Shown here one piece after another: positions 14,581-52,768 of a stretch of DNA of 61,842 nucleotides. Made by a program: the position numbers and the translations under genes. The notes under the pieces are model-generated. The model ran no database searches, was not told the origin of the DNA, and saw only the letters and a list, made by a program, of their open reading frames with translations. Origin of the DNA: a virus. Positions within the stretch are counted from its first letter, which is position 1; each line of letters opens with the position of its first letter. The stretch covers positions 65,160 to 127,001 of the IMG/VR virus record IMGVR_UViG_3300008107_005855. One strand, written 5' to 3'.

Positions 14581-15074
14581 GCAAACAAATCCTCATTCCA
14601 TTCACGGTGACCTTCACGGAAAGCCATGTTGCTCTGCGTTTCACGTACTTCTACACGATAGCACCACAAACGTGCGGCTTCGCCTGGTCCCCACATCTCA
14701 GGAATGTATACGCCATTCACATACTTGTACAGCATGTCAGACAGTCCCTCACAGCCTAGTTTTGGTAACACAACTATCTTGGCCATGTTACGTTCTTGTA
14801 ACAGTTTAAATGTTTCCATTTCGGGATCATCTTGTGCTACAATAAGTGTATGGTCAAATTGATCTTCTAGTGTTCGCTTTAGTTCTTTTAGGCCACCGTA
14901 GTCGGCAGCCCAGTTGCGGACATCTAGGTCATTGGTACCAAAGAAAAACTTCATGCTAAATGAATAGCCATGAATTAAATTACAATGACTGTCTGCCCTC
15001 CACTGTCTATAGGCGCAGGGAAATGCGTCATGGTACTCTTTGGTACTTGTATATTTGTAAACTACTGGTGTCAT
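14577..15074 (-). CDS. queD: 6-carboxytetrahydropterin synthase-like protein (QueD/PTPS family)
   Basis: 165 residues. QueD converts 7,8-dihydroneopterin triphosphate to 6-carboxy-tetrahydropterin. Visible: SHCNLIHGYSF (residues 29-39), corresponding to the family's C-x3-HGH block, DYGGLKELKRTLEDQFDHTL, a CEGLS block, and a C-terminal VRETQSN with the substrate-binding Glu. The second His of HGH is Tyr here and the upstream AAH motif is CAY, so zinc ligation is non-canonical. Context with queE and folE supports the role. Leader carries a hairpin next to the SD. Confidence 0.8.
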   Translation of the reverse strand: MTPVVYKYTSTKEYHDAFPCAYRQWRADSHCNLIHGYSFSMKFFFGTNDLDVRNWAADYGGLKELKRTLEDQFDHTLIVAQDDPEMETFKLLQERNMAKIVVLPKLGCEGLSDMLYKYVNGVYIPEMWGPGEAARLWCYRVEVRETQSNMAFREGHREWNEDLFA

Positions 15075-17352: not shown

Positions 17353-18099
17353 TTATCGCGGTGCAAACTCTTGTTGCAGTTTGATGTTATCAAAGAACTC
17401 TTTTTTTGTACCAGGGTCGTCTTTGAATGAACCTTTTAATACAGTAGTCTGTGTCAAACTACTATGTGCCATGATGCCACGATTTTCACAGCATCCGTGT
17501 ACAGCCTGGATGTATACTCCTAGGTCAGTTGCTCCAGTTGCTTTGGCAATTTCTCTGGCAATGTCGTTAGCAAGTTCTTCCTGTAATGTGCCACGACGAG
17601 CACACCACTGAGCAATACGAGTGTACTTGCTAAGACCAATGAGCTTTTGAGCGGCAATAATCCCGATATAAGCAACGCCACTGACAGGTTGGTGATGATG
17701 ACTGCACATACTGCGAAGCTCACTACGCACCACAAGCATTCCTTCATATCGATCTTCGCTGTCGTTTGGAAATGCTGTTGCGTCTGGTGCTTGGTCATAT
17801 CTGCCTGCCATTATTTCGTTAAAATACATTTTAGCAAGTCGTCTTGCTGTGCCTTTGCTATTAGGATCTGTTTCACGATCGATCAATAACACATCCAGCA
17901 TTTTTTCAAATGCAGGTGTTGCTTCGTCGATTAGTTTCTCAATATCACCTTCGTGCAAGTAATCACTAATGTTGTCGCCTGCCCAGAAACGTTTGCCTTC
18001 ACGTTTCATTTTAAAGCGAATATGATCACCTAGGTATGCTTCTTTGTATCCGCCATCTCCTGCCATGGCGTCTAATCCTGTTTCTTTTTTATCTGTCAT
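17353..18099 (-). CDS. folE: GTP cyclohydrolase I
   Basis: 248 residues; opens GTP to 7,8-dihydroneopterin triphosphate, the first step shared by folate and 7-deazaguanine synthesis. Zinc ligands of the family are visible as C132 with H135 (MCSHHH) and C203 (HGCCENRG), and the QEEL / GATDLGVYIQAVHGC blocks are typical. In a phage with QueD-like, QueE and a DpdA-like enzyme it most likely feeds DNA modification. It has its own near-consensus promoter. Confidence 0.92.
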   Translation of the reverse strand: MTDKKETGLDAMAGDGGYKEAYLGDHIRFKMKREGKRFWAGDNISDYLHEGDIEKLIDEATPAFEKMLDVLLIDRETDPNSKGTARRLAKMYFNEIMAGRYDQAPDATAFPNDSEDRYEGMLVVRSELRSMCSHHHQPVSGVAYIGIIAAQKLIGLSKYTRIAQWCARRGTLQEELANDIAREIAKATGATDLGVYIQAVHGCCENRGIMAHSSLTQTTVLKGSFKDDPGTKKEFFDNIKLQQEFAPR

Positions 18100-18136: not shown

Positions 18137-18165
18137 ATTGTAATGTATTTAGATTGTTGTGTCAA
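18137..18165 (-). promoter_or_regulatory. sigma-70 promoter for folE
   Basis: TTGACA (6/6), 17 bp, TACAAT (5/6) on minus. Overlaps the last codons of the aminotransferase-like gene by 4 nt. Leader of about 30 nt carries GGAGAAAC before the ATG. Confidence 0.85.
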
Positions 18166-18752
18166 GGCACAATAGTTATTTTTCTTAAATCTGGGTAATG
18201 AACTTTAGCCGGAATTGGTTTTGATTCTTTAACACCTTCGAGCAAGGCCAATCCTTGCTGTGCTTCTTCGATAGTTGGTTTATAATGAAACCCAACTTTA
18301 AAAACGGTTTGATCCTGCCACGGACTTACTGTTAAATCTCTACCATCATAGCGTTGGTGCAATATGGTGTCGTAGGCAACCACATCATCAAGAAGAATAG
18401 CACCTCCGCGACCAATTGCCAACGGCTTTCCGTGACCAAAACTTAAACATTGCATCTGACCTTCTCTGTACATGTTTTTTTCTAATCGACGGGCACTGTC
18501 CCAAACATCAGTTCCATAAAATCGATACTCTCCGGTCCAAGTTTCTGGAACCAATTCGTAGTCGATGTTTAATTTATGCATGGTCATTGGAACGCTCAAA
18601 TAGGTATACGCAGTAAATTTAGTATGTTTAACTTTACAATATCGTAAACACATTTCAATGGCGTGTGTACAACAATCTGTCATAATTGCATACGGTGCCC
18701 CAGTAAATTTGGCTAACTCTTTTTCAAAGGCTAAAATTTTATCAAAGGTCAT
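18162..18752 (-). CDS. DegT/DnrJ-type PLP aminotransferase-like protein, short
   Basis: 196 residues against ~370 for full DegT/DnrJ/EryC1/StrS aminotransferases. It keeps an N-terminal substrate/PLP region (FTGAPYAIMTDCCTHAIE) and the block SFGHGKPLAIGRGGA with the expected PLP lysine. Most of the C-terminal domain is missing. Full enzymes make amino-sugars. This one follows a sugar-nucleotide epimerase gene with an 11-nt overlap, so a sugar role is likely, but activity of the shortened form is uncertain. Confidence 0.7.
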   Translation of the reverse strand: MTFDKILAFEKELAKFTGAPYAIMTDCCTHAIEMCLRYCKVKHTKFTAYTYLSVPMTMHKLNIDYELVPETWTGEYRFYGTDVWDSARRLEKNMYREGQMQCLSFGHGKPLAIGRGGAILLDDVVAYDTILHQRYDGRDLTVSPWQDQTVFKVGFHYKPTIEEAQQGLALLEGVKESKPIPAKVHYPDLRKITIVP

Positions 18753-19563
18753 AATTTAGTTTCATCCAATCTTCAACACTAGTCCATTCTTTTGGACCAA
18801 CTGCGAGATTATATTGAGTAAGGTCTGCTTGTGTATGTTCTTGGTACGTAGAGGTCAAGATCGGGGGCATAGGAATGTATTCAATTTCGGCTGATTCTTG
18901 TTCGGCTACCAGTCTGGCGATACGTTCGAAACTTCTGGTACTACCTGTTCCGACATTAAAAATTCCGCTGACATTGGTGTTTAAAAATCTCAAATGCGAA
19001 TCAACTACGTCTTCGACACAGACAAAATCTCTACAGTAGTTTTCGCTGTTATAGAATAATTTAATCTTGCCAGTTTTTCTTGCCTGATTTCGAAACTGTG
19101 TTACAGGACTGGCCTGAGATCCTTTGTGCATCTCGCCACGTCCGTACACGTTAAAATATCTAAAACCTTGTACAACGTTACCTCCGCGGTGTTGTTCCAC
19201 ATGTCTGTCAAACAGATATTTGGACCAAGCATAAGGACTGCGAGGATCTGGATTGCAAGATTCTTTAAAATTTTGATTCAGTCCGTACACACTAGCCGAA
19301 CTGGAATATTGAAAGTTAACGCCAAAAGTTTTACATTCATTAAAAAGTTCAATGCTGTATTCAAGATTTTGCTGTAGTACAAGATCAATGTTTCGTTCGG
19401 TGGTTGAACTGTTGGCTCCAATATGTATTACCCAATCATATTCCATAACACCACGATGCCGATTGTGCCAATCAAAACTGTCGACGCTGTGTCCTGTATT
19501 TTTTAGTGCCTGTATCACATGCGGAGCAATAAATCCTTGATCCCCAGTTACTAAGATTTTCAT
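18742..19563 (-). CDS. NAD-dependent sugar-nucleotide epimerase (heptose epimerase-like)
   Basis: 273 residues, short-chain dehydrogenase fold: N-terminal NAD-binding GDQGFIAPH, an IHIGA motif, then SPYAWSKYLFD with the YxxxK catalytic pair. FNVYGRGE and the overall layout resemble ADP-L-glycero-D-manno-heptose 6-epimerase (RfaD/HldD). Adjacent genes encode the two HldE-type activities, which supports a heptose-type pathway. Length is slightly short compared with HldD (~310). Confidence 0.78.
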   Translation of the reverse strand: MKILVTGDQGFIAPHVIQALKNTGHSVDSFDWHNRHRGVMEYDWVIHIGANSSTTERNIDLVLQQNLEYSIELFNECKTFGVNFQYSSSASVYGLNQNFKESCNPDPRSPYAWSKYLFDRHVEQHRGGNVVQGFRYFNVYGRGEMHKGSQASPVTQFRNQARKTGKIKLFYNSENYCRDFVCVEDVVDSHLRFLNTNVSGIFNVGTGSTRSFERIARLVAEQESAEIEYIPMPPILTSTYQEHTQADLTQYNLAVGPKEWTSVEDWMKLNYDL

Positions 19564-20330
19564 TGTATTTCCTCTAATGTGGGTGCATATACACCCAAGT
19601 GCTGTACTGTTACACCTGCGGCACGATTGGCGAATGCCACTGACATTCTAATGTCTTTTGTTACCAGGTACTGATAAGCAAGTGCGGCTAAAAAGGTATC
19701 GCCAGCACCGGTAACATCAACTACTTCTACCTTGGGTGCTGTTTCTTGAATTGCATGATGTATAACTTCTGCACCTTTGGCACCACGAGTTACAATCAAC
19801 CCTGTACACTCACTTTTAATTTTAGAGTATTCGGGTTCGTTGATTTTGACCCAGGCGCCCTGCATACGTTCGAGGTCTGTTAGTTTGGTATCGATAAACA
19901 CAGGAAACTTGACACCGCGATTTGATTGTTTGATGATATCTTCAATTAACTCATAATCAACTACACCTTTGGCATAGTCACTGATAACCACAGCATCGTA
20001 TGGTGGTAGCTCAGTTTCAAATCGTAATGGTGTTGATTTTACATCTTCGTCTATACGTGCAATTTGTTGTCGACTGCGCTGATCAATGAGTCGAGTTTTT
20101 TTGCTGGCGTGTCCACACAGCAAATTAACCGTACAACCTAAAGTAACTAAGTTGGCATATACATTACCAGCCATGCCTTCACGTTCTTCTTTGTATGTGG
20201 GCACAAATACAGGAACAGGTGCTTCGGGACTTAATCGATCAATGGTTCCGTATTGATAAACATCAAGGCACGTGTCCCCGATTAGTAATATATTGAATTG
20301 TTTTGGTTGTTGAGTGCTCGGTTCGGTCAT
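19560..20330 (-). CDS. PfkB-family sugar kinase, HldE kinase-domain-like
   Basis: 256 residues from ATG 20330 (MTEPSTQQPKQFNILLIGDT). PfkB signatures: GDTCLDVYQYGTIDRLSPEAP near the N-terminus and the GAGDTF active-site block in the C-terminal third. This resembles the HldE/RfaE domain I that phosphorylates D-glycero-D-manno-heptose 7-phosphate at C1. The start lies inside the 3' end of the nucleotidyltransferase gene (about 68-nt overlap). In E. coli the two activities are fused; here they are separate genes in reverse order. Confidence 0.82.
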   Translation of the reverse strand: MTEPSTQQPKQFNILLIGDTCLDVYQYGTIDRLSPEAPVPVFVPTYKEEREGMAGNVYANLVTLGCTVNLLCGHASKKTRLIDQRSRQQIARIDEDVKSTPLRFETELPPYDAVVISDYAKGVVDYELIEDIIKQSNRGVKFPVFIDTKLTDLERMQGAWVKINEPEYSKIKSECTGLIVTRGAKGAEVIHHAIQETAPKVEVVDVTGAGDTFLAALAYQYLVTKDIRMSVAFANRAAGVTVQHLGVYAPTLEEIQ

Positions 20331-20682
20331 AAAATAAAATTTCTTTACAAAGGTGTGATCCCACAATACGTTGATTTTTGTAATCGCTACCTTTGACCAT
20401 TACGTCGGGTTTATACAATTCCAGTAGTTCTTCTAATTCATCTTCGTCATCAAATATCCATACTTGATCTACACATTTTATATTTTCTAGAAAAAATTTT
20501 CTATCATTTTGGTTATTGATGGGTCTTTCATTGCCTTTGAGTTGTTTTACCCTGGCGTCCGAATCGATTAGTACTAAAAGAAAATCGCCAAGGCCTTTGG
20601 CGTATTTTAATAATTCGATGTGACCTCTGTGTAAAAGATCAAAAGTTCCATTAACTACAATTTTCTTTTCTGATACTTTCAT
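20263..20682 (-). CDS. HldE nucleotidyltransferase-domain-like protein
   Basis: 139 residues. Cytidylyltransferase-type signature GTFDLLHRGHIELL (residues 13-26, HxGH) and KGSDYKNQ with TTKTIQYI near the end, as in RfaE/HldE domain II, which transfers AMP to heptose 1-phosphate. Overlaps the kinase gene downstream and is coupled by ATGA to the HAD gene upstream. Together with kinase and epimerase it would give ADP-heptose if a C7-phosphatase is supplied. Confidence 0.82.
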   Translation of the reverse strand: MKVSEKKIVVNGTFDLLHRGHIELLKYAKGLGDFLLVLIDSDARVKQLKGNERPINNQNDRKFFLENIKCVDQVWIFDDEDELEELLELYKPDVMVKGSDYKNQRIVGSHLCKEILFYDRTEHSTTKTIQYITNRGHVP

Positions 20683-21161
20683 AACTTTTTAAGTTCATTT
20701 ATTGTATTATTAAGATCCCCGCGATGTTGGATAGCAATACCCCCGGCACTACGCCATTCTTCGCAGTTACTGGTCCGATCATCAATTAATACATCTCCGG
20801 ACTGGCAATGTACATGTTTGTCTTTACTAAAAGGTCCAAACATAACTGGAATGTCTGGATAGTGTGTGGCGGCCCAATGCACCTTGTCATAGAATGCCCA
20901 ATGCACATCATTGCCTTTTGGTACCGCAGTCAAGAACATTAGATTCCAGCCATGTTGACTGCACAGTTGTCGACAATAATCAACCAATTGATCTGCTTCA
21001 ACTGTTTTATCCAAGTCTCTATACAGTCTATGATTGTCTTTGAGACGTACCCAATCTTCATGGGGCCACTTTTCTTCATTGCTCTTTTTTCTTAATACAC
21101 GGACTGCATACGATTTAAAATCTGCAATTACATCGTCCATGTCTAAATAAATTGTTTTCAT
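20679..21161 (-). CDS. HAD-superfamily phosphatase, 5'-nucleotidase (NT5C)-like
   Basis: 160 residues. N-terminal DMDDVIADF (residues 7-15) is the DxDxV/T nucleophile motif of HAD phosphatases; FLTAVPK is motif II, and VLIDDRTSNCEEW motif IV. The closest style is 5'(3')-deoxyribonucleotidase, but in this operon it could serve as the GmhB-type heptose phosphatase (inference). A 4-nt overlap joins it to both neighbours. Confidence 0.75.
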   Translation of the reverse strand: MKTIYLDMDDVIADFKSYAVRVLRKKSNEEKWPHEDWVRLKDNHRLYRDLDKTVEADQLVDYCRQLCSQHGWNLMFLTAVPKGNDVHWAFYDKVHWAATHYPDIPVMFGPFSKDKHVHCQSGDVLIDDRTSNCEEWRSAGGIAIQHRGDLNNTINELKKL

Positions 21162-21517
21162 TTTTGACTATCGCCTTTGCCTATACGATAATTATCTTCT
21201 ACACTGTCTGGTGTGCTAACTTCAATGATGGTACCTGCTTCAACACATACTACCTGATGAGGAAGTAAAGGTTTATTATGCCATACTTCTCCAGCACTCA
21301 ATTGTGCTTCGTGCATAGTAGCATCTACAGTATCAATGTAGAATACGCTAAACTTGCCAGACAGCACATACCAAGTTTCTTCTTTTTCTTTATGAAAATG
21401 CATGCTGAATTTTGCACCAGCGTTGAAGTGCATGAGCTTGCCGCAGTACCGATCATTGGTTGCCCATATCTCTTCTGATCCCCACCCCTTGGGTACAATG
21501 CCTGTTAATCTTGTCAT
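21158..21517 (-). CDS. cupin protein, sugar-phosphate isomerase-like
   Basis: 119 residues. Cupin motif 1 pattern FSMHFHKEKEETWYVLSGKFSVF and motif 2 PHQVV. It resembles the single-domain cupin C-terminal part of mannose-6-phosphate isomerase/guanylyltransferase proteins. Start chosen at 21517 (ATGA overlap with galE stop); an in-frame ATG lies 15 nt upstream. Sits in the sugar cassette and probably acts on an activated sugar. Confidence 0.75.
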   Translation of the reverse strand: MTRLTGIVPKGWGSEEIWATNDRYCGKLMHFNAGAKFSMHFHKEKEETWYVLSGKFSVFYIDTVDATMHEAQLSAGEVWHNKPLLPHQVVCVEAGTIIEVSTPDSVEDNYRIGKGDSQK

Positions 21518-22488
21518 TTTCTTGTATACCATTTATAAGCTGTGTCTATGATTGTTTCGATGTCGCTGTGTTCAGGAACCCAGCCCAATACTTCATTGGC
21601 CAATGTAGCGTCAGCAACTAGTGTAGCAGGATCTCCTGGTCTTGCTTCACCAAAGAACACAGTACTCATTCCGTACGTGTCTTTAACATAGTCAAGTATC
21701 TGTCGATTGCTAGTTCCGTGATTGGTACCCAAGTTAAAAATGTGCGCCCCGGGTTCTTGATCAACAAAGTCGACAGCACAAAGATGTGCGTGTGCTAGAT
21801 CCCATACATGAATATAATCACGCACACATGTACCATCTGGTGTTGCAAAGTCTTCGCCGTTGATAGTAAATGCACGTCGATTGATACTGGCTTCAAGTAC
21901 ACGAGCAACAATGTGTGTGGCCTCTGGTTCTTGCCCTAAGTCAAAATTGTGAGGTTCTGCTCCGGCTGCATTAAAGAATCTAAAGCACACACTGTTAAGA
22001 TTGTATGCTGTGTAGTAGTCGTTTAGAATACGTTCTACTGCTAACTTGGTATTGCCATATGGACTAATAGGATCCAATCTGTGACACTCCACCACAGGTA
22101 CATGTTCTGGCTCTCCGTACACACTGGCACTGCTACTAAACAATACCATTGGAGGTTTGTGTAATTGTTTGATACTGTTTAACATTGTGATAGTTTTTAC
22201 CACATTGTTGTTGTAGTATTCTGCAGGATCAGTCATACTAGGACCAACTAAACTAGTGCCAGCACAGTGTACAATAATGTCCGGTGCCAGTTCACGAATA
22301 GTAGCAAGACTGTCGAGGCTGGCAAAGTCTCCAATGTAGTATCCATCCATGCCGTTCAGTGCATGATCACGTTGTACACGATCGATTACGTATACTCGGT
22401 TACCTTTTTGTTTGAATGCACGAGCTACATGACTACCGATATACCCGCATCCGCCAGTAACAACAACAGTTTTATTCTTTGTTGCCAT
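21514..22488 (-). CDS. galE: UDP-glucose 4-epimerase
   Basis: 324 residues, a typical GalE length. N-terminal Rossmann GGCGYIGSHVA, SSSASVYGEPEHVPV, catalytic YxxxK in SPYGNTKLAVERIL, RFFNAAGAEP, and RDYIHVWDLAHAH are all characteristic. Interconverts UDP-glucose and UDP-galactose in the cytoplasm. In a phage it may supply sugars for surface or DNA glycosylation; the glycosyltransferases at 23688 and 40329 are possible users. Confidence 0.92.
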   Translation of the reverse strand: MATKNKTVVVTGGCGYIGSHVARAFKQKGNRVYVIDRVQRDHALNGMDGYYIGDFASLDSLATIRELAPDIIVHCAGTSLVGPSMTDPAEYYNNNVVKTITMLNSIKQLHKPPMVLFSSSASVYGEPEHVPVVECHRLDPISPYGNTKLAVERILNDYYTAYNLNSVCFRFFNAAGAEPHNFDLGQEPEATHIVARVLEASINRRAFTINGEDFATPDGTCVRDYIHVWDLAHAHLCAVDFVDQEPGAHIFNLGTNHGTSNRQILDYVKDTYGMSTVFFGEARPGDPATLVADATLANEVLGWVPEHSDIETIIDTAYKWYTRK

Positions 22489-26751: not shown

Positions 26752-28302
26752 TCACAAGATGTTTTCAAGACTGTCAAGTTTTGATTCGTCAAAATCTTCT
26801 TGATCTAATTCTTCCCCGATGCTCTCGACTGTGTCAAACAGAGCGTTAAACATTGTATTGGCATTGCGAGTTTTTTTACCTTTAAACCCTCTAGTACCAA
26901 TAATGTCCATCCAATAACGATCGTAATGCTCGATTATGGCTTCAGATTCATTCCGATCAGTTGTGGCAAATATAGCATCTACTATATCTGCAAATTTAGC
27001 GTGGTCACCATTTTCATTCCACATCATGTAAGGCCAACATGTGCCAGTATCAAACTCTCTATTGGCACGTTGTACAGCTTCTATGTGTGTCCAGACATTA
27101 TGTCCCATGAGCAAAGCATAACTAAAGCTGTCCCATGAAGTCTTGCCTTCTTTGCCAATCTTGTTAAGGTCGCCTGGCTTGTAGATGCAGATGTCTTTCA
27201 TGGTCAGTAACTGACTAATTGGGCTTTCGTCAAAATGTTTCCAGTATCCATCTGCCACAGTAGTTGTGCCATAAGGTCTTGTATCTGTGCTGTATTTTTT
27301 GTCATCGGCGCTGGGACTCATACGATAACACCATTTGTCGTTGTGCGGCAAATCAATGTGGTGATATACCTGTCCGTTAGCAGTGGCAAGGAACGGACTA
27401 GCACAGTCAAACGAAATAGTAAAAGACGGATTAACATATTTTCTAATTGCCCGCTGAATCACAGTGAGTAACACAGCCCATTCTAACTTTGATGTTCCCA
27501 AGAAGTGCATCCAATCATGTTTGCCCTCTTGTAACAAGTTGTCGTGACGTAGTGCTACCAGGCGCTTTAATACTAGATGTACGTCACACATGTTTTGTCC
27601 ACCCATTGACCAACCATCAAAGTGAGTGTCTGGGTATTTAACAGGGTCGCAGTATTCTTTCATGGTTTGATACCATTCCTCGGCTGAAGTATGATTATCG
27701 CCTTGTAGAACGTTTAGGAACTTGGCACCACCATTCTTAACACCCTTGCGGTGCTTCATGAAGTATTCGTTGTTGAACTTGGTAGCGTCAACTGCTTCTT
27801 GCAGTGTGGTAATTTGGCAGGCCTTTGATGCCTTCTTGTCGTGAATAACCCAGGTAGGAATATCCAAGATCATGCCATAGTCGGCAACATTGTCCAACCA
27901 GTTCAAGATTAGACTTCGTTTCTTTTGAGCCTTGGCACAACCTGAGTTGGCTTTCCAATCGCCTTCCCACAAGCCCTTGGCAATCTGGAATCCACCCGAG
28001 TCACCTAACAGGAATGTACCAGGTTCACGATTACGTACCATGTCCTCACTCCAGTCCTGCTTGTTCAAGTCCAAATTAGCATGACCGCCCGAATACAAAC
28101 TCCACTTATAAGGGAACAGTGCTTTCTGACTGTTAAGCCAATTCATCTGTTCCATGTCAGTTAGGCCTTGCGGCAAACGTGCAGGGTCTACATAATTCTC
28201 ATTACGTTGTTTGCCCACAAAGGTGGCGTAGAAGCCACTGATAGCTGGCAAGAATACAGCGTAATCTTTTTGGTTAGCGGTTAAATTATTTTCCGGAGTC
28301 AT
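26752..28302 (-). CDS. dpdA: tRNA-guanine transglycosylase-fold DNA transglycosylase (DpdA-like)
   Basis: 516 residues. TGT signature motifs occur in order: GDSGGFQI with Asp101 (base-recognition Asp), LNVLQGDN at 197-203, DGWSMGGQN at 229-237, and SFDCASPFLATANGQ with Asp299 aligning to the TGT nucleophile Asp of FDCxxPxxxxxNG. The zinc site of tRNA TGTs is not evident. TGT-like DpdA enzymes swap guanine in DNA for 7-deazaguanines, and this phage also encodes FolE, QueD-like and QueE, so a DNA target is most likely. Longer than bacterial TGT (~375). Confidence 0.82.
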   Translation of the reverse strand: MTPENNLTANQKDYAVFLPAISGFYATFVGKQRNENYVDPARLPQGLTDMEQMNWLNSQKALFPYKWSLYSGGHANLDLNKQDWSEDMVRNREPGTFLLGDSGGFQIAKGLWEGDWKANSGCAKAQKKRSLILNWLDNVADYGMILDIPTWVIHDKKASKACQITTLQEAVDATKFNNEYFMKHRKGVKNGGAKFLNVLQGDNHTSAEEWYQTMKEYCDPVKYPDTHFDGWSMGGQNMCDVHLVLKRLVALRHDNLLQEGKHDWMHFLGTSKLEWAVLLTVIQRAIRKYVNPSFTISFDCASPFLATANGQVYHHIDLPHNDKWCYRMSPSADDKKYSTDTRPYGTTTVADGYWKHFDESPISQLLTMKDICIYKPGDLNKIGKEGKTSWDSFSYALLMGHNVWTHIEAVQRANREFDTGTCWPYMMWNENGDHAKFADIVDAIFATTDRNESEAIIEHYDRYWMDIIGTRGFKGKKTRNANTMFNALFDTVESIGEELDQEDFDESKLDSLENIL

Positions 28303-30970: not shown

Positions 30971-33634
30971 TTACTCCCAACTAAACAAACTGTCAAATGT
31001 TGTTGTAATCTGTGTGTTTTCGTCAATTTGCCAACTTAACACACCTAGCAAGTTTTCAACCTTTTGATTAACCACACTACTCTCCATTCCGTCATCGTCA
31101 AACGGCAAGTCTTTAAACCATTGCGGAATGTGTGACTCGTCGGTTGGATACCCAACACTGGTATATCCCAATGGGTTATCTTTTAACTTACACACAATGG
31201 TTTTCATTCCGTCCACAATTGCCATACTGTAATTATCGCCGTGCATGCGTTTTAAATTATTCCAATTCATTGCCGCACGTACATGTCCGGGCATGTTGGC
31301 TTTGCCTAGTCTTTCTTCTTCTTTAGAGTACTTGGTCAAGTTGTTGACACGTTTAGGCGTGCCTTTTTCCCAAGCCGGTCTTTCTTTGAACGCTAGTTTA
31401 AATTCGCGAACTTGGTCATAAATTTCTTCTTTTTGTGTTCCTGTGAGAACCTTTAGCAACAGCTCACTTAAAAACTCTTGGATTACTTTAGGTGTGTCTG
31501 ACCGCTTAAGATCTAGTCCCATGGCTTTAACTTTGCCAGGTTTACCGTTTGTGTCTAATCTGTTGCCTTCTAGATCATAAATTAGTACAGCATAACGCTT
31601 CTTCTTAATAAACAGACCTTTTTCTGCAACCAGTTCTCGACCACCTTTGATTAAACTGCCCATCTCTCTAGGACAATGAAATGCTTTTTCCATGAATCCG
31701 GGAAAACTGTCATTCACACTCTCGGCAATGGTATCGTATAGCTGTACACAGATGTCTTTGTTCCACTCCATGCGCCCAGATTCAATTTCTTCTTTGAGAA
31801 TAGAATAGGCACTGAAATACACACTATCAGTGTCTCCATAGATAATAGCTTTGCCAGTATGATCGTATTCGCCGGTGATGCATTCGTTTACATGACTGTC
31901 CATGTGGTGAGCAATGGCGCGGCCTGTTAGTGTAGTACTTTGTCCGATACGCTTGTCAAAGAATCTACAACCAGGATTAAGAATAGCACCATACAAACTG
32001 TTCAAGTTAATCTTCTTGACCAGTTGTCGCTTGTCCCAAAAAGATTTTTCTTCGGGAGTGGTAGCATCCTTCTTCTTGGCCTGCATCTCTTTACGTTCAG
32101 CATACCAACGTTCCAACAAGCCTGGAATGATACCTTTCTTCTCGTAAGTCATTATGGTGCCATTGGCAGTGAGTATCCAAGGTTGTTGGCTATCAAACAT
32201 CATATGCCATACGTCTGCGGCACTGTGTACAGTTGGCTCTTGGCCCTCCCAGTCAATGGTAATTTCAGTACCGGGCTCCATGTTCATTACAGCAGTATAC
32301 TCTAGGCAGGCAAATAAACCTTCCCATGCATCTGCAAAGTTGTCACTATTCTGTGACATTTTTTCTTTAATATAATGATCAGTCATTATCGGTCGGAGTT
32401 GTCCGACAATGGTTTCTGGGCCCATGTTAAGGGCGCGAATAGCCGAGGGATAGAGCGAGTTGATGTCAATTGCTCCGATGTATTCGTGGATGCCTTTTTT
32501 GGGATAAGCAACATAGGCACCTGCGGCTTGTGTTTCACCTTGATCATCTCGATTTCTCCTATTTTGAACAATCATACCACGACGATGAGCTTCATTGATA
32601 ATGGCCTGTTCAGTTACGGCAACTGCCCCCATGGTAGTTGGTAACAGTACAGTATTGTCATGAGCCAGTTCATTGGCCAAATCTAAGAATCTTAATTTCT
32701 TATCCATTTTGGCCAACAACATTGTATCCTGTCTATTGTAATCAATAAACTTGGGAAAATCTTTATTGTATAGTTGATCGAGGGTTCCCTCGTAAGCAAT
32801 CTTGCGTTCGTCTAGTTCGTATTCACCAATGGCATCAAGCGAATAGCTATGACGTTCTTCGTATGTGTACTTGCGGTACAGTTGCATATAGTCCATATGC
32901 ACACGACCAATCAAGTCAAAGGTAATGTTCTCTGCGCCAAATCTTTCGAATGTGCGCTGTTTGGGCATTTGTCCCCAGAGACAAAATCTACGGCAGTCAT
33001 CTTTGCTCAGTACACGCTTGGTACGCATGACCATGTAAGGAATATCAAAGCCTTCACTGTTCCAGCCACTGAGTACGTCTGCATCTTCAATTAGATCAAG
33101 AAATGTGTTTAACATTTCTTCTTCACGCTCAAAGAGATAACAGTTTTCAAATTTATTACAAATCTCTTCTGCTGACTCCCAACTGTAGCTCTTGGGAGGA
33201 ATCACCAAGGTAATCATTTTATCCATCCAGTCTAAGTATACTGATATGGCTGTTATTGGATTAAATGGATCTTCTGGTCGACTATAGCCACGCTCGGGGT
33301 CAAAGTCAACTTCAATATCAAAAAAGGCTACATTTAGTTTAGGGGATTCTGTACCCGAATAGTTTTCTTCCAAGCATCTAAAGATAGGATTAATATCACT
33401 TTCCCAAAGTCTCTTGCCAGAATTGATCTTTAGTTCTTTATGATACTCTTTGCTGTTTCTTGTGCTGAAACGACTGACAGGTGTATCATAAATTGTTTTG
33501 TACTTGCCTCTGGGATCGTCGTAATAAAATACATAGTTGGCTGGATATTCTTTATATACTCTTTGGCCATCATAACGTTCCACTACGTGAATTTGATCTT
33601 TTGCTCGATCAAACAATGCATCAATATAACTCAT
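30971..33634 (-). CDS. family B DNA polymerase (T4 gp43-like)
   Basis: 887 residues, matching T4 gp43 (898). Exonuclease: FFDIEVDF (D106, E108), SGWNSEGFDIPYM, and YNRQDTMLL. Polymerase: motif A IDINSLYPSAIR, motif B KKINLNSLYGA, motif C YGDTDSVYF. Replicative polymerase, processive with the clamp and clamp loader of this window. AGAATAA-type weak SD before ATG. A TATAAATA late box lies upstream. Confidence 0.95.
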   Translation of the reverse strand: MSYIDALFDRAKDQIHVVERYDGQRVYKEYPANYVFYYDDPRGKYKTIYDTPVSRFSTRNSKEYHKELKINSGKRLWESDINPIFRCLEENYSGTESPKLNVAFFDIEVDFDPERGYSRPEDPFNPITAISVYLDWMDKMITLVIPPKSYSWESAEEICNKFENCYLFEREEEMLNTFLDLIEDADVLSGWNSEGFDIPYMVMRTKRVLSKDDCRRFCLWGQMPKQRTFERFGAENITFDLIGRVHMDYMQLYRKYTYEERHSYSLDAIGEYELDERKIAYEGTLDQLYNKDFPKFIDYNRQDTMLLAKMDKKLRFLDLANELAHDNTVLLPTTMGAVAVTEQAIINEAHRRGMIVQNRRNRDDQGETQAAGAYVAYPKKGIHEYIGAIDINSLYPSAIRALNMGPETIVGQLRPIMTDHYIKEKMSQNSDNFADAWEGLFACLEYTAVMNMEPGTEITIDWEGQEPTVHSAADVWHMMFDSQQPWILTANGTIMTYEKKGIIPGLLERWYAERKEMQAKKKDATTPEEKSFWDKRQLVKKINLNSLYGAILNPGCRFFDKRIGQSTTLTGRAIAHHMDSHVNECITGEYDHTGKAIIYGDTDSVYFSAYSILKEEIESGRMEWNKDICVQLYDTIAESVNDSFPGFMEKAFHCPREMGSLIKGGRELVAEKGLFIKKKRYAVLIYDLEGNRLDTNGKPGKVKAMGLDLKRSDTPKVIQEFLSELLLKVLTGTQKEEIYDQVREFKLAFKERPAWEKGTPKRVNNLTKYSKEEERLGKANMPGHVRAAMNWNNLKRMHGDNYSMAIVDGMKTIVCKLKDNPLGYTSVGYPTDESHIPQWFKDLPFDDDGMESSVVNQKVENLLGVLSWQIDENTQITTTFDSLFSWE

Positions 33635-34542: not shown

Positions 34543-35331
34543 TTAACCTTGTGCCTTTTTCAATTGGTCTGCGATATCTTTGGCATTGGCCTGTTTAGCT
34601 GTTGTAGCAATGCTAGAACTAGACGAAGGGTTTTTTAATAGATCAGCCAGGATTGGAGCCAACTTACTAATTTGATCTTCTTCGCCAGGATTCAACTGTT
34701 GGCCTGAGTCAGCCTTGTCTAATGCAGATGTAGTTTTTTGTATGTCCAATCCTTTAGCACTCAAAGGTTTAAGTTTTTGTACACTTTGTTTCAATCTGTC
34801 TAGTTCTAATTTATCTTTTGGATCAATTGTTTGTTGTGCTGTTCCGGTACCGGCAGTTGCTTGTGCATTTGGACCAATCGCTGAACCATTTGCTCCGTAC
34901 TCATCGATTTTGTGGCCAACAACTTCTTCATACTTGTCCATGCTTAATACATTACCGCTGGCAGAAAGTTGTACTAGTTTTTCAGCTATGCTGTGAAGGT
35001 CAACATCGCTCTTGGCATCTTCACGAGCAAATTCAAGTAGTCTAATCATTAACGGAACATCTACTGCAATAACGTCGGGCAAATTGCCTTCACCTGGACC
35101 GCCAGTGGTTTTGAATTCTTCGAATTCACGAGCTAGTTTTCTTGTGGGGTCGGGAGAACGCAAAGAATCTTCAAGTTCGGCCAAAAGATTTTCGCCTACT
35201 AGACGATTTTTAAAAGGGTGTGCCTTATTATAAGGTTTTGCCTTTTCTGTGCCACGTACTTGATCGCCGGGTTTTTGTTCTGGTTCGCCGGCAAATTTAT
35301 GCATGGCTTCTAGTAGGTGTTTCATGTCCAT
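34543..35331 (-). CDS. probable head/internal virion protein, 262 aa
   Basis: Not assigned by homology. N-terminal MDMKHLLEAMHKFAGE is amphipathic, like capsid-targeting or scaffold peptides. A helical middle domain (VDVPLMIRLLEFAREDAK, DLHSIAEKLVQL) is followed by a Gly/Ala/Thr/Gln-rich linker and a final Ser-rich helical part. Neighbours at 35333-39037 are also likely virion proteins, so packaging is plausible. Confidence 0.65.
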   Translation of the reverse strand: MDMKHLLEAMHKFAGEPEQKPGDQVRGTEKAKPYNKAHPFKNRLVGENLLAELEDSLRSPDPTRKLAREFEEFKTTGGPGEGNLPDVIAVDVPLMIRLLEFAREDAKSDVDLHSIAEKLVQLSASGNVLSMDKYEEVVGHKIDEYGANGSAIGPNAQATAGTGTAQQTIDPKDKLELDRLKQSVQKLKPLSAKGLDIQKTTSALDKADSGQQLNPGEEDQISKLAPILADLLKNPSSSSSIATTAKQANAKDIADQLKKAQG

Positions 35332-35332
35332 A

Positions 35333-35782
35333 TTAATATACGCCTTTGCCTGTGGGCACCTTGGATCTACTAATTACATTGCCAATTTTTTTAGGAATAC
35401 CATTTGATGGCTTTCCGCCTCCGATTGGAGTAACTGCAACAGCAATAGACGAGGAAGAAGTATTCTCTACTAGACTGTTAAATTTATTTTCTATAGATTC
35501 AAAACTCACTGTCGGCAGTTCTTGTTCTTGCCCGGCTGTGTGTTCATAATGCAGATAGTCTCTTACAGTTTTTAAATAATCAGCGGCCAAGGTAAGTTTC
35601 TCACTTACCCAACCTTCTAATCCATCTATTTCAGTTATGTTTTTTAACAGGTGATGTAGTTCAATTGCGGCCTCGGCGGCATTATAGCAGTCCTGACGTG
35701 CCATTTGCACTTCGTGATCTTTGTGCATACTTTGGGCACCGTCGACAATTTGATTTTCTACAATAAAGTCTGTTGTTTTCAT
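35333..35782 (-). CDS. probable virion protein, 149 aa
   Basis: Not assigned by homology. Starts MKTTDFIVENQ, close in style to T4's capsid-targeting MKTYQEFIAE, with a possible cleavage after Glu9 or Glu of FIVE. Helical middle (YNAAEAAIELHHLLKN, EKLTLAADYLKTVRDYL) and a Gly/Lys/Pro-rich tail. A late-type promoter sits 19 nt upstream. Confidence 0.68.
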   Translation of the reverse strand: MKTTDFIVENQIVDGAQSMHKDHEVQMARQDCYNAAEAAIELHHLLKNITEIDGLEGWVSEKLTLAADYLKTVRDYLHYEHTAGQEQELPTVSFESIENKFNSLVENTSSSSIAVAVTPIGGGKPSNGIPKKIGNVISRSKVPTGKGVY

Positions 35783-36099: not shown

Positions 36100-36600
36100 T
36101 TATTTTTTCTTAAACAAATGATATGCTTTCATCATGTTTTTTAGGGTATTACCATCGACATCGTTTTGATCGCCTGTTGTGGCCATTACATATCTAGGGT
36201 CATTTCCATCTTTGACTACGCCTACACCTGCGGCTTCTTCTTTTAGATTGCCTTCGTCTTTGGCACGTTGTAAGAACGCAAGTCTATCGCTGACACCTTT
36301 AATACCAGGTTTGATATTTGCGGCATCTGCTCTGTCACCATAACTGGCTTTTTTCAAATGCTTTAGCGTGGTTTGTGCCTGATGACTTTGTGGATTGCTT
36401 TCGGTCATGTTGCCTAAAATTTGTTCAACATGCTTGATCCAACCGCTCACATCACTGCTGCCAATTTCGTCAACATCACCTACAAAATCTGCAACTTCTT
36501 CAATTGCAGACATGACCTTTACTGGACCGTACTTGCTTAACAAGTCTGCACGTTGCATCAGGATTCTACGTGTAATAGCACTAGACACGACGTTCATCAT
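36100..36600 (-). CDS. phage domain protein following the polyprotein, possible frameshift product
   Basis: 166 residues from ATG 36600 (MMNVVSSAITRRILMQ). Contains RADLLSKYGPVKVMSAIEE and VGDVDEIGSSDVSGWIKH, a module I recognise from environmental phage polyprotein-like genes. It lies in the +1 frame relative to the 818-aa protein and overlaps its last codons. Upstream of 36600 this frame is only out-of-frame translation. It may start at 36600 (GGTGG just upstream) or be joined to the polyprotein by a +1 shift at GTC-TAG. Confidence 0.65.
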   Translation of the reverse strand: MMNVVSSAITRRILMQRADLLSKYGPVKVMSAIEEVADFVGDVDEIGSSDVSGWIKHVEQILGNMTESNPQSHQAQTTLKHLKKASYGDRADAANIKPGIKGVSDRLAFLQRAKDEGNLKEEAAGVGVVKDGNDPRYVMATTGDQNDVDGNTLKNMMKAYHLFKKK

Positions 36601-39037
36601 TGCCGCCACCGTCTTGTCTATAAGCGTACGACTGGCGCTTGCCCATGCCTGCAACACTACTGTCGTAATCTCTTTGGTACGCATCGCGCCTATACCCAGC
36701 CTCCGCCACACCTTGTGACGAGTTTTCTATCTGCTTAATAGCATCATACAAAACCCATTCCAATCGACCAGTGTATCCTTGTGGGAATGTGGCTTTACCT
36801 GTTTGTACCTGTTTGGCTATGGCCCTTAGGTTGGCTAGTTCGTTTACTGTGTTCTGGGCACCTTGTTCTGGATTATTTCTTAATGCGTTAATGGCATCGT
36901 ACAATGCTACTTCTAATTGGCTAGCAAATCCTTGCGGGTATTGGGCTTTTCCAGTTTGTATTTGTTTTACTGTAGATCTTATATTGACTAATGATTGCAC
37001 AGTATCATTTTCACCGACGCCTTCTGTCTTGGGCTTCTTGCCGTCTTTTTTCATAGCAATGGCTATAGCAGCCTGCTGTGGATGTGCCGACTTGGTCTCG
37101 GCCATACCTTGCTGACTATACATATCAACTAGTTGTCGAACATAGAAATTATAATGACCACGACGATCATTGAATTCTCTATTGCCAAGCACAATCTTTA
37201 ATGCGGCCACAGCATCATTTACATCTGAACCACGCATTATTTTTAATGCGTCTGTCACTAGTGAATCCACACGCTGTGAGCCTTCTGCTACATCTTTCTG
37301 ACCATGTTTCTTGAGATCGTTATCAAACTGTTTGTTAGTAGCTTTTACAATACCACTAAATCTTTTATCACCACGTTTAAAGTCACCCGATGCATCTGCT
37401 TTCTTAGCATCTGCTCCTGCGGCCTTTTTATACTGAGCCAATTTATCAGTAGATAATTCTTTTAAATTGCCTTCTTTATTGTTGCTGTGTATTTCGGGTT
37501 GCTGGTTCCCGCCACCAATATCTTTGTATTTCATTTTTAACCTATCTAATTTTTGTTTTAATCCCATTTGTTCCTGTTTACTGTAAGGAACTATTACCAT
37601 GTCACTGTCACCTTGACCGTATTCGTGAGGATCATCGGTTCCTAGTGTTGGATAGTGCTGTCCTAACTTGTACCAATCTAGGTCACCCGGAGTATCAATC
37701 ACTAAGGAATTCTTAGGAGTTGTCAGCAGATCTTTCTGATATCCTTTTGGATCTGGCTCTACTGCCACACCTTCGGATGTGCCCGATTGAGGATTGGTTA
37801 CAAATTTCTCAATTGCTTGTTTTACACCGTCTGGCGCATTAGTCCACGGTTCAGCAACACCGGTGCTGTCAAAGCTACCACCTTGCGGTTTTAGTGCAGG
37901 ATTTACATAGGATACTTTAACATCAGTGAACGGAATCGGAGATTGGTTAATGTTTGGTCGATAACTTGCTTGAACAGTTTTACCGTTACTTAGTTTATAA
38001 TAATTTAGTGTTGGTTCAAGCAATTCATTTAATTGACCTTCCGCTACGCCTTGCTTTTGCAAATAAAAATACGAGCTTACTAAATCGCTAGGAAAATCGG
38101 CATCGTAGTTAAACATATAACGAGCAGATTTTTGACCTAGATCATTTGCCACTATGTGGTATGCTTGATTTAAGATCTCGTCTTCGGAAGTGATATCTTG
38201 ACGCTTGTTGAAGATTTGTTGTGCCAGTTGTTCGGCATAGTTACTGCCAGACCCTTCGGTTACACTTTCTTTTATTTTTTCGCAGTCGTTTACTCTAACA
38301 CTTTTACCGTGGGTCGGACTTGGTTTAGTTCCGACTTTTTTATAGCCAGGCCAGCAATTTTCTTTACGCCTGGCAGATTGAGAACGCTGTGCTTCGGTGA
38401 TGTCTTCTGTTTTCATCGTTGGTATCTTTTCAAATATTTTAACAATACTTTCATTGTATGCTCCATAGAGCCCCACAATAAATTCTTTGCGTTGTTCGGG
38501 ATTGGTTCTAACCTGATTCCATAAATTACGCACATCGGTTCCGTGACTAACATCGTATTGTTGGCCGGCAACAGTGACCGACTCTTGTAACTCTGGAACA
38601 ACTACCACATAGCCATGCTTGTCGGCTGTGGTACATTTACTTAGATCTTCAAAGTTTTTAAAATATCCTGGAGAACCATTTTTTTTAACGCTGTCTGGAT
38701 TCAGACGCTTGGCATCAGGTGCACCAACAGCAGTAACAAAAATGGTACGCTCGGGTGCAATTCCCTCAGGGGGCTTATACATCTGATTGCTTTGGATAAT
38801 GCGATCTTGAGTAATGCCCATTGCGGTTATTAGCTGTACTTTGTCGCTAAAATTAAAAGGACTTTTGTCTGAACTAGTGTCGTTACTAGTTTGGATGTAG
38901 ACATTTTTAGCACCAAACTGTGCTTGAAGTTTGCTATAAACTCCTAAATGTCCTTTATGGAATGGCTGAAATCGTCCTGGGTAAGTGACGATAACAGAAA
39001 TTCCTTGGTCTTCAGTAAACATATCTGCAATAAACAT
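36581..39037 (-). CDS. 818-aa probable head polyprotein with N-terminal nucleotidyltransferase domain
   Basis: Residues 1-210 carry a cytidylyltransferase-like fold (GRFQPFHKGH at 21-30, SNDTSSDKSPF, and a conserved GTDVR near 166-170), as in NMN/PPAT-type adenylyltransferases. The rest is a chain of short domains separated by hydrophobic-x-Glu motifs followed by small residues (Glu215, 261, 333, 396, 585, 647, 676, 779), like T4 gp21 prohead-protease sites. Residues 679-721 and 730-772 are tandem repeats of one 43-residue unit. The MFIADMFTE start resembles a capsid-targeting peptide. Likely packaged and cleaved. Confidence 0.75.
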   Translation of the reverse strand: MFIADMFTEDQGISVIVTYPGRFQPFHKGHLGVYSKLQAQFGAKNVYIQTSNDTSSDKSPFNFSDKVQLITAMGITQDRIIQSNQMYKPPEGIAPERTIFVTAVGAPDAKRLNPDSVKKNGSPGYFKNFEDLSKCTTADKHGYVVVVPELQESVTVAGQQYDVSHGTDVRNLWNQVRTNPEQRKEFIVGLYGAYNESIVKIFEKIPTMKTEDITEAQRSQSARRKENCWPGYKKVGTKPSPTHGKSVRVNDCEKIKESVTEGSGSNYAEQLAQQIFNKRQDITSEDEILNQAYHIVANDLGQKSARYMFNYDADFPSDLVSSYFYLQKQGVAEGQLNELLEPTLNYYKLSNGKTVQASYRPNINQSPIPFTDVKVSYVNPALKPQGGSFDSTGVAEPWTNAPDGVKQAIEKFVTNPQSGTSEGVAVEPDPKGYQKDLLTTPKNSLVIDTPGDLDWYKLGQHYPTLGTDDPHEYGQGDSDMVIVPYSKQEQMGLKQKLDRLKMKYKDIGGGNQQPEIHSNNKEGNLKELSTDKLAQYKKAAGADAKKADASGDFKRGDKRFSGIVKATNKQFDNDLKKHGQKDVAEGSQRVDSLVTDALKIMRGSDVNDAVAALKIVLGNREFNDRRGHYNFYVRQLVDMYSQQGMAETKSAHPQQAAIAIAMKKDGKKPKTEGVGENDTVQSLVNIRSTVKQIQTGKAQYPQGFASQLEVALYDAINALRNNPEQGAQNTVNELANLRAIAKQVQTGKATFPQGYTGRLEWVLYDAIKQIENSSQGVAEAGYRRDAYQRDYDSSVAGMGKRQSYAYRQDGGGNDERRV

Positions 39038-51198: not shown

Positions 51199-51815
51199 AT
51201 TACTGTTACCCTTACATCGCTTGCACCATAGTTTTGATTATATTCTTCTGGAGGAACTTGTATTTTTAACATTCTGGCTAACTGTTGATTTGTTAAAGGA
51301 TGTTGCCCAGGGTATTTGAATGAAGCACTAACAATACCTGTGTTTTGTTGTTTGATTATGCTGGCCATTGTTTTTAAGTCTTGATAATAGCCATGATAGT
51401 TGGGATACGAGATGTCAAAATGACCGCACTTGACCCACCATCCTAGACAAGCATCATCTGGGCGATGCACCAGCACAACAGGACATTCGGGCCAGGTTCT
51501 TTTAATAAAGTCGACATGATTACTAAACACATGACTTTTGACAATTCTAACACCTGACCCAGTAAAAGCACTATCGAACTCTTTTTCTAAATCTTCTTTG
51601 GTATACTTGTCCATGTTGTCCAACAGTTGGCCAAATTCCATTCCTGGATCGAAGTATGCACCCAGATGCATTAGTTCTCTTTTGCCTGATGCATCGTGAT
51701 AGTATGTGCGCTGGTCTGAATAATCACTGGTGTCAATGCTGGGACTGTAGTAGATATTCTTTACTACACTGCTCCATTTTGAGCCTGGTGCACCGGCTAC
51801 AAATATGTATTTCAT
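51195..51815 (-). CDS. P-loop/sulfotransferase-like protein
   Basis: 206 residues. FVAGAPGSKWSSV (about 5-17) resembles the P-loop or 5'-phosphosulfate-binding loop; VVLVHRPDDACLGWW (about 112-126) resembles the 3'-phosphate-binding motif of sulfotransferases, with His in place of the usual Arg upstream. Overlaps both neighbours by 4 nt. Acceptor unknown. Confidence 0.62.
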   Translation of the reverse strand: MKYIFVAGAPGSKWSSVVKNIYYSPSIDTSDYSDQRTYYHDASGKRELMHLGAYFDPGMEFGQLLDNMDKYTKEDLEKEFDSAFTGSGVRIVKSHVFSNHVDFIKRTWPECPVVLVHRPDDACLGWWVKCGHFDISYPNYHGYYQDLKTMASIIKQQNTGIVSASFKYPGQHPLTNQQLARMLKIQVPPEEYNQNYGASDVRVTVI

Positions 51816-52768
51816 TTGTTGGGATTAATTCTACGAGCAATGGGTTGCCAAGTCTGTTGCAGTCGAGCCATGCTTGCTCTAACTCCTGCGGCACTGTGTT
51901 CAGTGGGCGTAATATACATCATGTTTTCTTTGAACTTGACAGCGGCCTCTGCACTGCGAATTGCAGGTACAAACTGATCACGATACCATGTTTGTATTTC
52001 CGGAGGTGTTCCAGGCGGCAATACCATGTTCCAGCAACCGTGAATACTTAATCCAGGTGCAGCCTTGCTCATCAAAGGAATATGTTCTAGCCCAGGCAGA
52101 GTGCGTGTATCTGCAATACCAATAAACTTTAGCTTGCCTGCTTGTACAAGCGGATAACCCACGGCCACAGGAGTTACACCAAATTCTACATGCCCGCCCA
52201 TAACATCTAATAGGGCCTGTGCAGGGCCTTTGTACATTACAGTTTGTAAGTTATCACTGCCAGGTACACTTACCTTGTCCACAAGATATTCCACTGCCAG
52301 TTTGTGACCACCACCGCCAATGGCTACAGTTAGTTTTTGTCGATTGCGAATAGCGGCTACAAATTCTTCCGGAGTGTTGATCTTACTCGAAGGGTGAGCC
52401 CAGAACGCCAACGGACTGCGAGCAATGTTGGCAATGGGTTCTAGCTCCATGGGGTTGTACTTGATCATGTCCTTGAACCAAATTTCAGGAGTGACCCAGT
52501 TTGATTGACAAGCAGGTACCGACATAGTGTGACCATCACGTGGAACAGTGACAAAGTGATTGATAGCTATGTTACCATCTGCACCAGGTCTATATTCAGG
52601 TACAAATTTTGCTCCTGTTTGTTTTTCCACAATGTCTGCTACAATTCTAAATGATATTTCATTCCCTGCGCCAGGGCCATTGGGAAATATAACTGTTACA
52701 GGCTTTGTGGGTTGCCAGGCAAATGCCAATGCTGGTAGTAATGCCAATAAGGCGAGAAGTTTTTTCAT
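51812..52768 (-). CDS. TctC/Bug-family periplasmic solute-binding protein
   Basis: 318 residues, the usual Bug length (~320). Signal peptide MKKLLALLALLPALAFA with cleavage after AFA17. Family motifs: KPVTVIFPNGPGAGNEI, EYRPGADGNIA, SVPACQSNW and FGVTPVAVGYPLVQAGKLK. These proteins capture carboxylates for tripartite tricarboxylate transporters and are massively expanded in Burkholderiales. The TctAB membrane components are not in the window. A phage copy would be a host-derived auxiliary gene. Confidence 0.85.
   Translation of the reverse strand: MKKLLALLALLPALAFAWQPTKPVTVIFPNGPGAGNEISFRIVADIVEKQTGAKFVPEYRPGADGNIAINHFVTVPRDGHTMSVPACQSNWVTPEIWFKDMIKYNPMELEPIANIARSPLAFWAHPSSKINTPEEFVAAIRNRQKLTVAIGGGGHKLAVEYLVDKVSVPGSDNLQTVMYKGPAQALLDVMGGHVEFGVTPVAVGYPLVQAGKLKFIGIADTRTLPGLEHIPLMSKAAPGLSIHGCWNMVLPPGTPPEIQTWYRDQFVPAIRSAEAAVKFKENMMYITPTEHSAAGVRASMARLQQTWQPIARRINPNK

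Follow-up and report, generated by a model that had tools for sequence, protein, structure and literature searches.

Gene organization of the locus

The viral DNA considered here (61,842 nucleotides, hereafter the window) comprises positions 65,160 to 127,001 of the IMG/VR virus record IMGVR_UViG_3300008107_005855, a partial contig of 127 kb that encodes a family B DNA polymerase of the T4 type at 30971–33634 (coordinates are those of the window unless stated otherwise). Its minus strand holds an open reading frame (ORF) of 818 codons at 36581–39037, whose 818-amino-acid product (P0001) is likely a head-targeted polyprotein of a T4-like phage that is cut by a gp21-type prohead protease. An earlier note, made from the sequence alone, had described this ORF; the ORF is real, and the note lacked its strand. 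The protein consists of a short leader, a nucleotidyltransferase domain and a series of small modules, with borders at sites of the type hydrophobic-x-Glu (φ-x-E).

The C-terminus of P0001 at residue 818 is set by a frame break that had gone unnoticed. It lies between positions 36588 and 36589 (minus strand), where the near-identical locus L002 carries 176 bp that are missing in the window; L002 has a 13-bp loss of its own further on. In L299, a locus from the same population, the frame stays open from Gln775 onward until the window's next ORF (36100–36711) ends. This read-through, together with the 176-bp difference, therefore indicates an intact chain of about 1,040 residues that includes the modules of ORF 36100–36711. 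Residues 780–818 of P0001 (AGYRRDAYQRDYDSSVAGMGKRQSYAY...; 36581–36700, minus strand), which stop after the break, share DNA blocks (777–817) with L106 and L065. The C-terminal modules of the polyprotein (SSAITRRILMQ..., HLKKASYGDRADAANIKPG... and AAGVGVVKDGNDPRYVMATTGD...; 36100–36588, minus strand) form blastn blocks at 819–880, 882–935 and 933–977, and in L302 and L309 the AAGVGVV module of this part comes immediately after the enzyme.

The frame-breaking insertions and deletions (indels) that separate the window from L002 within one gene could suggest that short repeats joined unrelated fragments during assembly. Such a chimera is highly improbable, as identical architectures occur in separate records (L014/L016 and L007/L040) and in cultured phages, and the 12–17 bp repeated between modules is short for misassembly. 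The 3′ frame break alone may be an assembly error.

Leader and enzyme domain

The chain starts with the leader MFIADMFTE (residues 1–9; 39011–39037, minus strand), which the earlier note had missed along with its candidate site Glu9↓Asp10 (the arrow marks the bond). The sequence MFIADMFTE↓DQG resembles a T4 capsid-targeting sequence (CTS) in its shortness, its N-terminal position and its φ-x-E end, and with nine residues it comes close to the 10–19 residues of the T4 leaders that direct cargo to the prohead core (PMC9026906). A leader φ-x-E precedes the enzyme in 58 of 63 distinct IMG/VR relatives and in 42 of the 47 relatives that were retrieved without any leader pattern. Among polyproteins with intact N-termini, 47/72 have φ-x-E at residues 5–16, compared to 20–23% of all ORFs of at least 100 amino acids on three contigs. 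Leaders of the same kind are found in cultured phages, such as MKKFSAFLTE↓A in S-RIM2, MKSFSQFLTE↓T in P-SSM2, MKNFSSFLTE↓A in S-CREM2 and MKSFLQFLKE↓A in S-SCSM1, and the related enzyme family further includes MKKFSEIIE↓A and MKNIKDILE↓A.

Module 1 (residues 10–215, ending DITE215↓A; 38393–39010, minus strand) is a domain resembling nicotinamide mononucleotide (NMN) adenylyltransferase (NMNAT), in agreement with the N-terminal nucleotidyltransferase that had been proposed before. Pfam assigns it to PF01467 (E 2.4e-6), and its best matches among solved structures are NadD/NMNAT enzymes, with Foldseek E-values of 4e-5 to 1e-3 at TM-scores of only 0.4–0.5. The two motifs of HxGH nucleotidyltransferases on the NMNAT fold, GxFxPxHxGH and an ISSTxxR-like motif, are present as GRFQPFHKGH and SHGTDVR, the latter reading S[AG]T..R (e.g. 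SATEVR) in the relatives of a 40-sequence alignment. A full-length MAFFT alignment misaligned the sequences (enzyme rows about 25% identical) and was dropped, and structure prediction was confined to the enzyme domain. The AlphaFold model of residues 1–227 has a mean pLDDT of 91.5, which drops to 52 over the ten N-terminal residues and to about 70 past residue 210, so that the folded domain lies between the candidate sites at 9 and 215. The fold class of residues 10–215 is thus safe, while the substrate of the predicted enzyme could differ from NMN or nicotinic acid mononucleotide (NaMN) within the superfamily.

The related enzyme family is found in 525 sequenced phages, mainly myoviruses of Synechococcus. 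Among the IMG/VR relatives, the tail beyond the enzyme is nearly absent in some and reaches about 1,300 residues in others. Cellular homologues are mostly ordinary archaeal NMNAT-like enzymes, in addition to two short contigs binned with Pelagibacteraceae. In Microcystis phage Mel-JY01 (L210, 4956–6875), an NMNAT-like domain is fused to a C-terminal part with an EKLDG motif, by eye perhaps a nucleic-acid ligase.

Glutamate sites and module mosaic

Behind the enzyme, P0001 is divided by φ-x-E sites that recur far more often than expected. The eight sites of the earlier note are all present, at DITE215↓A, SVTE261↓G, GVAE333↓G, GVAE396↓P, DVAE585↓G, GMAE647↓T, GVGE676↓N and GVAE779↓A; its bracketed list of motifs named the right sites in an order that did not follow their positions. 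The pattern [GD][VM]AE occurs five times compared to a mean of 0.04 in 20,000 protein shuffles, none of which reached five, and the looser [VILM]xE[GASNP] ten times compared to a mean of 2.7 (fraction 2e-4 of 20,000 shuffles). No other ORF on the 127-kb contig has GVAE-like words of the type found between modules.

The segments between the sites recur elsewhere in other company. Module 2 (residues 216–261; 38255–38392, minus strand), a small basic segment of the form CWxGY...NDCEKIKE, recurs in different contexts in many further proteins, and a similar CWxGY module is part of the virion protein S-SCSM1 gp29. Module 3 (residues 262–333, ending QGVAE333↓G; 38039–38254, minus strand) gives tblastn matches to residues 263–339, 264–333 and 264–344 in unrelated proteins and constitutes a segment family (F2) of five proteins with differing neighbours. 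For module 4 (residues 334–396; 37850–38038, minus strand) one weak relative was found, in L269 (residues 335–418). Modules 5a and 5b (residues 397–585; 37283–37849, minus strand) have many matches that end at 577–585, and contain a shared module, ELSTDKLAQYKKAAGADAKKA...NKQFDNDLKKH (residues 522–577), that is 64% identical in UTS51990 of the cultured Synechococcus phage BUCT-ZZ01.

In the following modules the mosaic is visible in the DNA itself. Module 6 (residues 586–647, ending QGMAE647↓T; 37097–37282, minus strand) shares DNA blocks (581–647) at 72–83% identity with L007, L106, L066 and others, and module 7 (HPQQAAIAIAMKKDGKKPKTEGVGE, residues 648–676; 37010–37096, minus strand) shares blocks (653–673) with L194, L203, L219 and L270. 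Module 8 (residues 677–779, ending QGVAE779↓A; 36701–37009, minus strand), which has an internal two-fold repeat, is 94% identical to L003 over 672–776 and 79% identical to L004 over 675–779, with different flanking modules in these loci. The blocks 581–647, 672–776 and 777–817 of the gene thus each match a different set of loci, and the breaks coincide with sites 585, 647, 676 and 779 or lie no more than a few residues away.

Modular proteins of this sort form a large, previously undescribed group in T4-like phages, with P0001 as one of them. A search of IMG/VR with the DNA pattern of QGVAEG returned at least 120 stretches, and among the matches listed at least 92 ORFs each have a minimum of two GVAE-like sites; the longest of these encodes 1,570 amino acids, and a few are chance matches in unrelated phages. 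As the motif itself could pull alignment ends, it was masked before BLAST comparison; even so, 36% of the partial matches among those listed end at GVAE-like sites, compared to 10–15% for decoy masks. Cutting the proteins at the sites yields at least 55 segment families, many of which have different neighbours in different proteins, and near-identical relatives differ by indels of whole modules, several of them bounded by φ-x-E (IPE↓, VSE↓, LAE↓). The masked alignment ends and the DNA breaks bear out the view of the earlier note that the Glu sites separate distinct segments: protease-type sites lie between units that are found alone or reordered elsewhere, as expected of a polyprotein. In 75 such proteins, the domains identified by Pfam include DUF6321 (12), GNATs, nucleotidyltransferase, cytidine deaminase and ParB-like domains. 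L219 combines a nucleotidyltransferase and a deaminase in one chain, with an HExxH stretch seen by eye only.

A conserved DNA seam between modules

The word QGVAE↓G between modules is also kept as DNA, with GGTGTGGCGGAA as its core. The window has one match to the QGVAEG codon pattern, CAAGGCGTAGCGGAAGG at 38037–38053 (minus strand), and 100 shuffles gave none; a second seam, CAAGGTGTGGCGGAG (Q775–E779; 36701–36715, minus strand), emerges from codon comparison and the blastn mosaic. At loci collected blind to the seam, the Ala of GVAE is encoded by GCG in 28/34 cases (82%) compared to 9% elsewhere, and Val by GTG in 23/34 compared to 23% elsewhere. A second seam-blind set gave GCG in 54/82 (66%) compared to 10% elsewhere and GTG in 54/82 compared to 18%. 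Seams of different contigs share their codons at a rate of 0.74 for Ala, 0.68 for Gly and 0.55 for Val, whereas identical residues of homologous modules do so at 0.41–0.42, near saturation.

These codon preferences, with Ala codon identity of 0.74 at seams compared to 0.42 in homologous modules and GCG in 28/34 and 54/82 cases compared to 9–10%, are what would be expected if the seam were primarily a DNA feature for recombination or cassette insertion, and its resemblance to a protease site incidental. The protein level is conserved as well, however. Among 332 in-frame seam-like words, the aliphatic P3 residue is kept in 328 and the P1 Glu in 314, while the P5 Gln changes freely, a pattern in which selection on the protein is apparent; conservation of the Glu motifs had been put forward in the earlier note as a check on its reading. 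In the DNA fetched, 187 of 195 exact copies of the 12-mer are in an open GVAE frame, the rest mostly reading GVAE near ORF ends, and sequence variants preserve φ-x-E. Furthermore, many borders have other DNA and yet φ-x-E (IPE↓, LAE↓, VDE↓), and the leaders have φ-x-E without the DNA word. Sites as pure DNA elements were accordingly rejected, given that copies stay in frame and keep φ-x-E, and a seam with a DNA role alone is improbable. Since codons and φ-x-E are both conserved, the seam seems to serve both protein and DNA, and this dual role is more likely than one in DNA alone.

Virion proteins and the prohead protease

Relatives of module 1 have been detected in virions. The NMNAT-like/cytidylyltransferase protein of the S-SM1 virion is the core protein T4-GC190 (PMC3037559), and mass spectrometry found such a protein in virions of S-CREM2 (gp154; PMC10665884) and S-SCSM1 (gp91; PMC9602691). 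Of these, the proteins of S-CREM2 and S-SCSM1 start with the leader. The S-CREM2 study (PMC10665884) names S-CBWM1 and S-SZBM1 as additional virion cases; the S-CBWM1 protein is without a short leader. In addition, S-SCSM1 gp29 (QFG06285.1), annotated from mass spectrometry as a virion protein, is itself built of several modules, one of which is 77–86% identical to IMG/VR polyproteins and another about 50%.

The earlier note had proposed a head protein that is packaged and cut at φ-x-E sites. This is the best explanation of the gene, supported by the leader, the module borders, gp21 and gp23 sites and the mass spectrometry of virions of relatives, with the reservation that cleavage and injection are steps we infer. 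Several further observations weigh against it. Relatives have φ-x-E↓small matches within their folded enzyme as well, so that not every match is a site, and the loose φ-x-E motif was for this reason rejected as sole evidence. Taken alone, P0001 shows modest agreement between protein-match ends and sites (p 0.04, falling to 0.012 with clustering), and some relatives consist of the enzyme with almost no tail. The authors of the virion studies caution that enzymes in CsCl preparations could be carry-over (PMC10665884, PMC9602691). Finally, gp21 and gp23 are both absent from the partial 127-kb contig, which is why they were sought in other polyprotein-bearing records.

The gp21 family (PF03420) was found there in two records of one set and eleven of another, and all thirteen also have gp23. 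T4 gp21 cuts following L/I-x-E (PMC9026906), and the predicted maturation sites of gp23 in these phages, placed by their position ahead of the conserved capsid domain, read LAE↓S, LAE↓A, LAE↓T, LLE↓N, LSE↓S, LSE↓N, LKE↓N and LME/IME↓S. Some polyproteins even start with a copy of the gp23-site context, e.g. YVLE↓SASGGTSAGS. The comparison with gp21-type specificity suggested in the earlier note thus reveals similar sites in the gp23 of other polyprotein-bearing phages, this phage's own pair being missing from the partial contig.

P0001 might instead be packaged uncut, as a multidomain polyvalent protein whose domains act while joined, with the GVAE words as flexible linkers at fusion points. 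That proteins of 2–15 domains accompany the DNA on injection is an established prediction, and linker-like modules would shuffle at their joints too. A linker, however, would not require a constant Glu at P1 or an aliphatic residue at P3, which are retained in 314/332 and 328/332 seam copies, respectively, and the joints resemble the gp23 maturation sites of such phages. Within P0001, moreover, Pfam detects just the nucleotidyltransferase (CTP_transf_like), and neither the polyvalent-protein domain set nor an embedded zincin was found. An uncut protein of this kind is consequently considered unlikely.

It is very unlikely that the gene product is never packaged and acts in the cytoplasm as a late or auxiliary metabolic enzyme whose tail evolves fast. 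An NMNAT-like enzyme would suit a function in host NAD metabolism, and the published virion preparations may have been contaminated. The conserved CTS-like leader and the repeated detection in virions of S-SM1, S-CREM2 and S-SCSM1 argue otherwise, as does the sharing of modules with S-SCSM1 gp29, a virion protein that itself has no enzyme domain.

Relation to known head proteins

Each element of the proposed head polyprotein has a precedent, in CTS-led internal proteins, fragmented core proteins, packaged enzymes or polyvalent proteins, and it extends the biology of T4 internal proteins. T4 IPI–III and Alt, which are processed by gp21, likewise have a 10–19-residue leader ending in φ-x-E, head targeting and, in Alt, an enzyme as cargo, Alt being cut at both ends (PMC9026906); T4 has one cargo protein per gene, whereas P0001 has many modules and repeated internal sites. 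T4 gp22 and gp67 are cut by gp21 to several fragments, some of which are kept in the head (PMC9026906), but this scaffold is mostly expelled and has neither shuffled modules nor a leading enzyme. The cyanophage virion NMNAT proteins (T4-GC190, S-CREM2 gp154 and S-SCSM1 gp91) share the broad nucleotidyltransferase class, the CTS-like leader and detection in virions, although their tails are shorter or differently built, extra residues lie between leader and enzyme, and cleavage has not been reported. S-SCSM1 gp29 and BUCT-ZZ01 UTS51990 contain modules common to the polyproteins with φ-x-E between them, but they have no enzyme module, their seams are not of the QGVAEG type and they were formerly unrecognised as polyproteins.

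Polyvalent proteins also combine many differing activities in one injected chain for which processing has been proposed (Iyer et al. 2017, PMC5512222), but by embedded zincin/assemblin-like peptidases instead of a prohead protease at repeated seams, and with different domains. In phiKZ and SPN3US, the prohead protease processes ejection proteins behind the Glu of short motifs, gp53 being cut at no fewer than three sites (PMC10052503), though these sites lie within one N-terminal propeptide and there are no shuffled modules. The statement of the earlier note that no viral polyprotein of this kind had been described consequently holds in part. The NMNAT-like virion protein (PMC3037559, PMC10665884, PMC9602691), the gp22 and gp67 fragments (PMC9026906) and polyvalent proteins (PMC5512222) were known, whereas the modular build, the shuffling at sites and the DNA seam are new. 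In the open-licence literature searched, no modular polyprotein with cleavage sites as exchange points was found, nor any paper that combines 'GVAEG' with 'phage'.

Neighbouring genes

Two genes next to the polyprotein gene also have CTS-like N-termini. The product of 35333–35782 (minus strand) starts with MKTTDFIVE↓N, similar to the MKTTDFITEN at the start of a protein with four GVAE-like sites in L115 (3671–5110), and that of 34543–35331 (minus strand) starts with MDMKHLLE↓A, similar to multi-site proteins of L162 and L115. Elsewhere on the minus strand, radical-SAM QueE-like, PTPS/QueD-like and GTP cyclohydrolase I genes (13048–13920, 14577–15074 and 17353–18099) possibly represent a 7-deazaguanine DNA modification pathway; the product of 26752–28302 (minus strand) appears DpdA/Tgt-like by eye, with no match in Pfam. 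A sugar-nucleotide gene cluster (18162–22488, minus strand) has HldE-like functions apparently split over 19560–20366 and 20263–20682, the latter matching PF01467. A TctC-type solute-binding protein (51812–52768, minus strand; PF03401, E 9e-24) is unusual in a phage and perhaps hints at the host. Outside the window (G000:C1:42501–50673) lie tandem CMxPW-type proteins, of which two are confirmed as radical SAM by Pfam.

Proposed processing, injection and evolution

In the proposed scheme, the gene product is a precursor from which internal head proteins arise, and the MFIADMFTE leader would target the chain to the prohead core like a T4 CTS. During head maturation, the gp21-type protease would cut after Glu in φ-x-E↓small, removing the leader and releasing the enzyme together with several small, often basic proteins. 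These pieces would remain inside the head and pass into the host along with the DNA, a step held with somewhat lower confidence than the cleavage of a head polyprotein. Once inside, the NMN-adenylyltransferase-like enzyme would probably change the NAD or nucleotide metabolism of the host at an early stage of infection.

The gene presumably evolves by gain, loss and swapping of modules at the cleavage sites, where the DNA word (CAA)GGTGTGGCGGAA(GG) would both encode QGVAE↓G and offer a short stretch of homology. More tentatively, T4-like phages of lakes and seas may possess a cassette system in which modules of injected cargo are exchanged in frame at a seam of 12–17 bp (CAAGGTGTGGCGGAAGG) that is at once recombination homology and a QGVAE↓G protease site. 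As the seam would combine the two, each captured module would automatically be packaged, released and injected.

If this is true, dozens of long 'hypothetical' ORFs in T4-like phages would become readable lists of injected proteins, processed by one protease at boundaries given by the sequence. Cultured relatives are at hand in S-SCSM1, S-CREM2, BUCT-ZZ01 and Melnitz-3. The seams would then also offer a simple route to injected host-takeover factors, as a module dropped between two of them would be packaged and released.

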